45,115 nt of DNA from Deltaproteobacteria bacterium (GTDB lineage: Bacteria > Desulfobacterota > DSM-4660 > Desulfatiglandales > Desulfatiglandaceae): NCBI GenBank assembly GCA_022340265.1, contig JAJDOH010000054.1, positions 1-45,115 on the forward strand. Direction: 5' to 3'. This document shows, one piece after another, positions 28,994 through 30,523 of the stretch. The position numbers were made by a program, and so were the translations under genes. The notes beneath the pieces are model-generated. The model was given only the letters and a program-made list of their open reading frames with translations, did no database searches and had not been told where the DNA came from. Each line of letters opens with the position of its first letter. Positions within the stretch are counted from its first letter, which is position 1.

Positions 28994-29035
28994 GCCCAGT
29001 TGAATGTGACGGCTAATTTCAGATTTTTCAGTAAA

Positions 29036-29986
29036 ATGAACTTTGATGAAAGTTATAAATTCTGTGAGCTGTGCCCACGGAGATGCGGTGTCAATCGAAC
29101 TCGGGGAATCCCCGGAAGGGGTCCCGGATTCTGTGGAGAGACAGACCAAATTCGTGTCGCCTATGTGGGTCCACACTTTGGAGAGGAGCCTCCCATTACA
29201 GGAATTCTGGGCTCCGGAACGGTCTTCTTTTCGGGCTGCAGCCTGAAATGTGCCTACTGCCAGAATTATCAGATTTCACACCGCGGCTTGGGTCAAACAG
29301 TTTCGTTTCACTCATTGATTGGAAAAATCAGACAAATGATTCATGCGGAAAAAATCCATAATCTTAATTTTGTTACACCGGATCATTTCCTTCCCCATGT
29401 GGTGCGGATTCTTCAGGTCTTAAAAAAAGAATACCCATTGCTTCCCGCTGTCTTTAATTTTTCGGGATATCAGTCTCTAGAGACCCTCAAACGCCTGGAA
29501 GGATATGCCGACATCTATCTGCCGGACTTCAAATACTCGGATCCTTCACTGGCCCAAAGGCTATCCGGTTGCGCCGACTATCCCGAACAAGGAATTGATG
29601 CCATCTCCCTGATGATACGGCAGAAAGGGTTTCTGAACGCTTCCCTTTCTGAAGGCGCGTTGGCAACCAGGGGTGTTATGGTGAGGCACCTGATCCTGCC
29701 GGGCGCCATTGAAAATTCCATCAAAGCACTGACCATCCTCTTCATTGAATTCGGCCCCGATCTGCCTTTAAGCCTCATGTCCCAATATCAGCCTGTTTTA
29801 CACAATAAAGATTCTGACCTCAACCGGCCCCTTCGGAGAGTGGAATTTGATGAAGTCTTTGACCACGCAAAACAGCTGGGGTTTTTAAGGATGTACGTGC
29901 AGTTGCCTGAATTTTCTGAAGGAGGGTTGGAAAAACGCCCCTCCTTCCTCCCGGATTTTAGAAACAGGCAACCGTTCGAGATTTAA
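29036..29986 (+). CDS. PflA-like radical SAM protein
   Basis: A 316-residue radical SAM protein with CSLKCAYCQN, the CxxxCxxC motif at Cys68/72/75. A preceding cysteine group, CELCPRRCGVNR and GFCGE, is typical of the pyruvate-formate-lyase-activating-enzyme-like subfamily of unknown substrate. ATG 29036 is chosen because the predicted transcript starts near 29000; the ribosome site is weak. There is no glycyl-radical enzyme in the window, so the target is unknown. The gene is divergent from the NifX/NifU-like operon. A 9-bp GAAGGAGGG/CCCTCCTTC hairpin lies within its last codons. Confidence 0.85.
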   Translation: MNFDESYKFCELCPRRCGVNRTRGIPGRGPGFCGETDQIRVAYVGPHFGEEPPITGILGSGTVFFSGCSLKCAYCQNYQISHRGLGQTVSFHSLIGKIRQMIHAEKIHNLNFVTPDHFLPHVVRILQVLKKEYPLLPAVFNFSGYQSLETLKRLEGYADIYLPDFKYSDPSLAQRLSGCADYPEQGIDAISLMIRQKGFLNASLSEGALATRGVMVRHLILPGAIENSIKALTILFIEFGPDLPLSLMSQYQPVLHNKDSDLNRPLRRVEFDEVFDHAKQLGFLRMYVQLPEFSEGGLEKRPSFLPDFRNRQPFEI

Positions 29987-29993
29987 GGTGCCC

Positions 29994-30133
29994 GGGAACC
30001 ATCAGCAATTCTCATTTTGAAATGATAAGCACTTGTGGGAGCGGCTTCCAGCCGCGAAAAATAGCAGCGAGACGCCGCTCTCACAGGTTTTACACCAAAT
30101 CAGCGTCCATAATTAGAATTGCTGGGGAACCAT
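29994..30133. mobile_element. MITE-like element with 9-bp target duplications
   Basis: GGGAACCAT occurs exactly at 29994-30002 and 30125-30133. Between them lies a 122-base element whose ends are inverted: CAGCAATTCT (30003-30012) and AGAATTGCTG (30115-30124), with the match continuing to about 15 of 17. Inside, TGTGGGAGCGGC and GCCGCTCTCACA form a 12-bp stem resembling a REP palindrome. It encodes nothing. It lies between the radical SAM gene and the rplU promoter. Confidence 0.8.
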
Positions 30134-30141
30134 TTTTATGC

Positions 30142-30170
30142 TTGACTCAAGACAAAATAGCCTATATAGT
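30142..30170 (+). promoter_or_regulatory. Predicted promoter for rplU-rpmA-obg
   Basis: TTGACT (30142-30147), 17 bases, TATAGT (30165-30170), about 35 bases before the rplU ATG. It begins eight bases after the MITE-like element. Confidence 0.65.
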
Positions 30171-30205: not shown

Positions 30206-30523
30206 ATGTATGCGGTCATAAAGACTGGCGGAAAACAATATCGGGTTGCCGCGGGCGATGAGATTCGGGTCGAAAAACTGCCGGGAGAAGTGGGTGATAC
30301 GGTAATGTTCGATCAGGTTCTCCTGACATCGGACGGCGAAACCGTTGAAGTAGGTCAACCTTTTCTGGAAAATTCAAAAGTGGCCGGACGCATTACCGCT
30401 CGCGGCAAGAATCGAAAGGTGCTGGTCTACAAATATAAACGGCGCAAAGGATACCGACGCAAGAATGGGCACCGCCAGCAGTTTTCGCTTGTCAGAATCG
30501 GCGACATTGGATCAGGCGCTTAA
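30206..30523 (+). CDS. rplU: 50S ribosomal protein L21
   Basis: A 105-residue protein with MYAVIKTGGKQYRV at the start and the basic KRRKGYRRKNGHRQ segment, both diagnostic of L21. AAGGAG precedes the ATG. It is first in the conserved rplU-rpmA-obg run. Confidence 0.97.
   Translation: MYAVIKTGGKQYRVAAGDEIRVEKLPGEVGDTVMFDQVLLTSDGETVEVGQPFLENSKVAGRITARGKNRKVLVYKYKRRKGYRRKNGHRQQFSLVRIGDIGSGA

Follow-up and report, generated by a model that had tools for sequence, protein, structure and literature searches.

A REP-bearing MITE with IS-type ends upstream of rplU in a member of the Desulfatiglandaceae, and same-ended elements in other phyla

Introduction

How REPs spread through bacterial genomes is an open question, and the standard model assigns this task to RAYTs. 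REPINs, which consist of two inverted REPs and form a long hairpin, are probably RAYT-dependent and carry no IS-type ends (PMC3116915). The available sections of a study from 2013 report that CGTC REPs lack a dedicated transposase and that longer palindromes in A. variabilis and H. neapolitanus contain REP dimers; in these sections, no link is drawn between the palindromes and IS ends or target duplications (PMC3733652). A REP within a MITE has been described in Coxiella burnetii, where QMITE2 (150–190 bp) combines terminal inverted repeats and direct repeats of 7–11 nt with an internal GTAG REP, and where small QMITE2 versions look like plain REPs (PMC5896051). For Nezha, a MITE of cyanobacteria, ISNpu3-like elements are the proposed mover (PMC3049150).

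Here, we describe a MITE upstream of rplU in a stretch of 45,115 nucleotides (the window; contig JAJDOH010000054.1) from a draft genome of the Desulfatiglandaceae. As described, QMITE2 resembles it in harbouring a REP between terminal inverted repeats and in having direct repeats of similar length. QMITE2 differs in that it has been reported from one species and in that its REP is discussed as a target of IS1111 and not as recurring cargo (PMC5896051). The core of the rplU MITE is an inverted REP pair like that of REPINs, from which the element is set apart by IS-type ends and by 9-bp duplications that point to a DDE enzyme. The GTAG and CGTC tags named in the available sections of the 2013 study (PMC3733652) also occur in MITE cores of other phyla. 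Nezha is a tentative candidate for membership in this IS group. A REP inside a MITE thus has a precedent, and an earlier reading made from the sequence alone (hereafter the sequence-only reading) was right to call the arrangement unusual, although QMITE2 means that it is not unique. Of the recurrence of REPs in the same ends across phyla, no report was found in a literature search that covered few subscription journals; a literature search with the end sequence likewise found no paper.

Anatomy of the element and its insertion site

The insert comprises 122 bp (30003–30124, plus strand) and lies exactly between two copies of the nonamer GGGAACCAT (29994–30002 and 30125–30133), a target site duplication whose length of 9 bp is established family-wide. 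Both the perfect duplications and the insert length had been recognised in the sequence-only reading, which had also noted inverted-repeat ends. These ends are present, and the termini CAGCAATTCT and AGAATTGCTG form a perfect inverted match over 10 bases, but the repeats are longer than this: the match extends to 15 of 17 positions (30003–30019 and 30108–30124), giving terminal inverted repeats of approx. 17 bp, CAGCAATTCTCATTWTG. The left repeat reads CAGCAATTCTCATTTTG on the plus strand and is identical to the ends of autonomous ISs in L218, L439 and L440, while the right one, its inverted match, reads CAGCAATTCTAATTATG on the minus strand.

The interior had been described as a single REP-like palindrome. 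Its inverted symmetry and strong folding stand, but it is better understood as a REPIN-like arrangement of two inverted REPs, TGTGGGAGCGGC..., which pair between 30031–30055 and 30064–30088. A REP census of the same genome delimits REP 1 (TGTGGGAGCGGCTTCCAGCCGC, 30034–30055, plus strand) and REP 2 (TGTGAGAGCGGCGTCTCGCTGC, 30064–30085, minus strand). The fold of the element is stronger than that of 200 out of 200 dinucleotide shuffles (z = -4.1), and an Rfam search returned nothing above threshold. The element is short, contains no transposase gene and has terminal inverted repeats of approx. 17 bp. Its assignment as a MITE, with a REP doublet between IS-type ends, is well supported.

On its left side, 16 bp separate the element from the stop codon of an open reading frame (29000–29986, plus strand) for a putative radical-SAM-like protein of 328 amino acids, named from its protein sequence and with an uncertain start codon. 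To the right lies rplU (30206–30523, plus strand), encoding ribosomal protein L21 with 105 amino acids; this name, too, was read from the protein and matches that of the earlier reading. A sigma-70-like rplU promoter, TTGACT - 17 bp - TATAGT (30142–30170, plus strand), can be read from the sequence, and its likely -35 box (30142–30147) begins 8 bases past the right GGGAACCAT, exactly where it had been placed before. The insert hence follows the upstream stop codon, precedes the -35 box and leaves the promoter intact.

Empty sites are available in two genomes of the same genus, G041 and G042, in which the insert is absent upstream of rplU. G042 has a single target copy and reads GAAACAATTTTTATGCTTGACTC, as compared with GGAACCATTTTTATGCTTGACTC for the window once the insert and one repeat are removed; G041 is also insert-free, and its target itself diverges more. 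The element's position 8 bp upstream of the rplU -35 box could be taken to mean that it was retained there as a regulatory insert. This is very improbable, because the remaining 12 copies of the MITE occupy unrelated sites and because the empty-site relatives (L177, L178) have a similar promoter region with a TTGACT box and a -10-like box. Any effect of the insert at rplU, e.g., the separation of two transcription units, is a guess.

Copies and target site duplications in the same genome

Searching the window's own genome, a 330-contig draft, with the element yielded 14 full-length matches of 121–123 bp and 86–100% identity. The matches on contigs C79 and C201 represent one locus at two contig ends, because their flanks are complementary; this leaves 13 distinct full-length copies, 12 of them in addition to the rplU copy, far more than chance would produce. 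In all 13, the flanking 9-mers agree at 7–9 of 9 positions, and the identity ends abruptly past 9 bases; flanks paired across different copies agree at 2.3 positions on average and at no more than 6. Insertions are mostly intergenic: at 10 of the 13 sites no open reading frame of 100 amino acids runs across the empty site, and the other three are ambiguous. Together with the empty site and the matching ISs described below, these duplicated copies bear out the proposal that the element is transposable and carries REPs at its core. The opposite outcome that the sequence-only reading had named, i.e., no other copy anywhere and both GGGAACCAT copies in insert-free relatives, was not encountered.

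In addition to the full-length copies, one-ended copies are present on C163 and C218. A 63-bp element on C108 (L061, G000:C108:19325-19387) consists of the MITE ends and one subterminal stretch, with neither a REP pair nor a target duplication, and is possibly a REP-less relative; as an ancestor of the MITE it was set aside, given that it lacks a target duplication.

Autonomous ISs with the same ends

Scanning public genomes with CAGCAATTCTCATTWTG revealed at least 120 stretches in many phyla, and several of these, among the matches listed, are complete ISs. In Desulfoferrobacter suflitae (L218), an IS of 1602 bp with one long transposase frame is bordered by a 9/9 duplication. A protein search in plasmids led to an IS of 1876 bp in Anabaena cylindrica (L440), likewise with a 9/9 duplication, and a Nostoc IS of 1886 bp (L260) has a 9/9 duplication and one mismatch in its left end. 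The Gloeothece IS (L439, 1766 bp) ends in CAGCAATTCTCATTTTG and shows no visible duplication; its gene is annotated as 'ISNCY family transposase', which connects this name to the shared ends. ISs with the ends of the MITE, which the earlier reading had suggested looking for, therefore exist in L218, L439 and L440, all from other bacteria, and none was found in the own assembly.

The family name depends on a single database annotation, because the transposase scores below the cut-offs of the curated Pfam and NCBIfam models, the nearest being NF033591 IS4 (E 9e-5) and PF13808 (E 0.009); 'ISNCY' thus serves here as an annotation rather than as a proven family. The motifs DGT, GDD and KVENE of the transposase can be read as a DDE triad. 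Very probably, the element is a non-autonomous MITE in which two ends of an ISNCY-annotated, DDE-type IS enclose a REP doublet. In the proposed mechanism, a transposase supplied in trans would recognise the 17-bp ends, staggered cuts at insertion would give rise to the 9-bp duplications, mostly in intergenic regions, and the REP pair would ride as cargo. The matching ends and the size of the duplications lead us to infer that an ISNCY-type transposase moved the copies of the own genome.

A transposase search of the 330-contig draft found no ISNCY-type gene, and among the matches listed for this genome there was no end pair at IS distance. ISs are frequently missing from draft assemblies. Because the transposase was not found, mobilisation in trans is not demonstrable in this genome, and in view of the assembly the MITE copies look orphaned and now immobile. 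Within the same taxonomic family, G012 contains a transposase fragment (L309) that is 60% identical to the end of the L218 transposase and lies near an end, CAGCAATTCTAATTTTG, at a distance of approx. 250 bp and at a contig edge. In G004, two unpaired ends (L146, L147) might have belonged to an IS, but no transposase reading frame was recognised there. The same-genus genome G040 carries many copies of a cousin IS of 1802 bp with ends CAGCAATTCCCGG and 9-bp duplications (L307, L313, L315-L327), which is also present in G041 (L306). As a mover of the MITE, the G040 IS (ends CAGCAATTCCCGGTTGC, 9-bp duplications, transposase 34% identical) was set aside, because its end match is limited to the first 9 bases.

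REPs inside and outside the MITE

At ≤2 mismatches, the REP sequence has 61 matches in the own genome and its reversed control none. Approx. 27 matches lie within MITE copies and approx. 34, about half, elsewhere, so that the REPs also occur outside the MITE ends, a feature expected of REPINs. Conversely, when elements were paired by their ends alone, 11 of 12 among the matches listed for this genome had REP cores. Among the outside REPs are two groups, X (C302, C116, C102, C168) and Y (C99, C54), each of which has conserved flanks of its own; their loops differ. In L071 (G000:C302), three group X REP pairs, one with an extra REP, are located within 9.3 kb. Two apparent hybrids were noticed: on C218 (L064 1393-1481), the right MITE end is joined at the REP to a Y flank, and on C134 (L062 1930-2080, 2930-3080), a MITE-like left end is combined with an X-like flank. 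Recombination between REPs would explain both joins.

The outside REPs might be what is left of MITE copies after decay and loss of the ends, in which case the REP family would simply be the MITE interior. Such decay is compatible with the one-ended copies on C163 and C218, with an Akkermansiaceae genome (G086) in which an end adjoins 10 of 10 sampled REP places (6 pairs), and with the truncated QMITE2 copies of Coxiella that resemble REPs (PMC5896051). We nevertheless consider it unlikely, because many outside REPs belong to groups X and Y, and random decay would not yield their conserved flanks.

How the REP pair entered the MITE is a separate matter. A RAYT might have inserted it once into a pre-existing MITE, which the DDE enzyme then amplified as a whole. 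This alternative concerns the entry of the REPs alone and leaves their spread by a DDE transposase unchanged; the 9-bp duplications point to an enzyme other than a RAYT for the MITE copies. The own genome does encode Y1-type transposases that resemble NCBIfam REP_Tyr_transpos, below its cut-off, and it has REP pairs outside the MITE, but no REPs of the MITE type closely flank these Y1 genes. Similarly, the 63-bp element on C108, with similar ends, one subterminal stretch and no REP, could represent the state before insertion, but it is single and without target duplication. Moreover, one of the genomes whose ends enclose CGTC REPs, that of a member of the Acetobacteraceae, gave no Y1 transposase match, although a draft may miss one. 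A single RAYT insertion is therefore a tenable minority view, which we hold at about one chance in three.

Related genera

The element is present in further genera of the taxonomic family. When copies of g1 are compared with those of g3/g9, the ends are 88–90%, REP1 89% and REP2 74% identical, as against 44–56% for the spacers; hence ends and REPs are conserved between genera and spacers are not. The query used for the relatives included the REP, and elements were for this reason also classified by end pairing. With this classification, 12 of the 12 end-paired elements examined in G006, and most of those in G005, contain the REP pair or a second REP type, whereas those in G002 and G003 have no REP cores but other cores within the same ends, and several of these elements are flanked by 9-bp duplications. 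The second core type of G005 and G006 is a differently tagged, unrelated REP-like pair (CGTAGTGTCGCC); in the sister genus it occupies the same ends in L158 (817-949 and 5894-6026), L165 (769-900) and L131 (1501-1632). In G002 and G003, the same ends and 9-bp duplications surround cores of 84 bp and 289 bp (L170, L171, L173, L176), and the 289-bp form seems to contain another insert that has inverted repeats of its own.

Other phyla

By the ends alone, and among the matches listed, 11 elements with GTAG- or CGTC-tagged REP pairs were found in six genomes: a groundwater Verrucomicrobium (L246 and, twice, L251), a genome labelled Akkermansia (L257), three Methylococcaceae (L202 and L290; L252 and L303; L278) and an Acetobacteraceae genome (L233, at a contig edge where the duplication is not checkable, and L305). 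Within the shared ends, Verrucomicrobiota have GTAG REPs, Acetobacteraceae have CGTC REPs, and Methylococcaceae have both kinds. The two kinds meet in a single Methylococcaceae genome, G087, where the same ends enclose a CGTC core in L202 and a GTAG core in L290. Of the REP places sampled in G085, 7 of 10 have both ends, some places being two halves of one pair, and in G088 and G089 the sampled places are mixed as to ends.

A REP is common in the core but not required, because same-ended elements of other hosts carry non-REP cores, of which many fold strongly and some weakly. The strongly folding cores of other phyla raise the idea that selection maintained the hairpin itself for a function within the MITE, e.g., to limit read-through or to stabilise transcripts, and that REPs represent one convergent solution among several. 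We regard this as rather improbable: L188, L223 and L294 fold weakly and still have target duplications, and compensatory changes in the REP hairpin are few (2 of 33 pairs). In Pseudanabaena (L302 6690-6980), two same-ended MITE copies stand in tandem with a single 9-bp target repeat between them.

Because unrelated REPs are found in the same ends, both within single genomes and across lineages, we infer that REP pairs were captured more than once. The MITE family would repeatedly have taken up local REP pairs and then dispersed them by DDE transposition. The uptake itself may have proceeded by RAYT insertion, by recombination or as repair filler. In part, this distribution could also stem from horizontal transfer of MITEs that already carried their REPs; an example would be the GTAGTCCCGGCTTTAGCCGG core shared by Verrucomicrobiota and Methylococcaceae. 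On balance, we lean slightly towards the view that one IS group repeatedly took up unrelated GTAG and CGTC REP pairs in at least four bacterial lineages, and that DDE transposition, besides RAYTs, spreads REPs.

Conclusions

REP pairs within IS-type ends and 9-bp duplications, as found in several phyla, point to a defined candidate mover for REPs and to a route of spread that can be tested directly. In some genomes, what is counted as REPs may in effect be MITEs. If true, repeated uptake would give CGTC REPs a mover.
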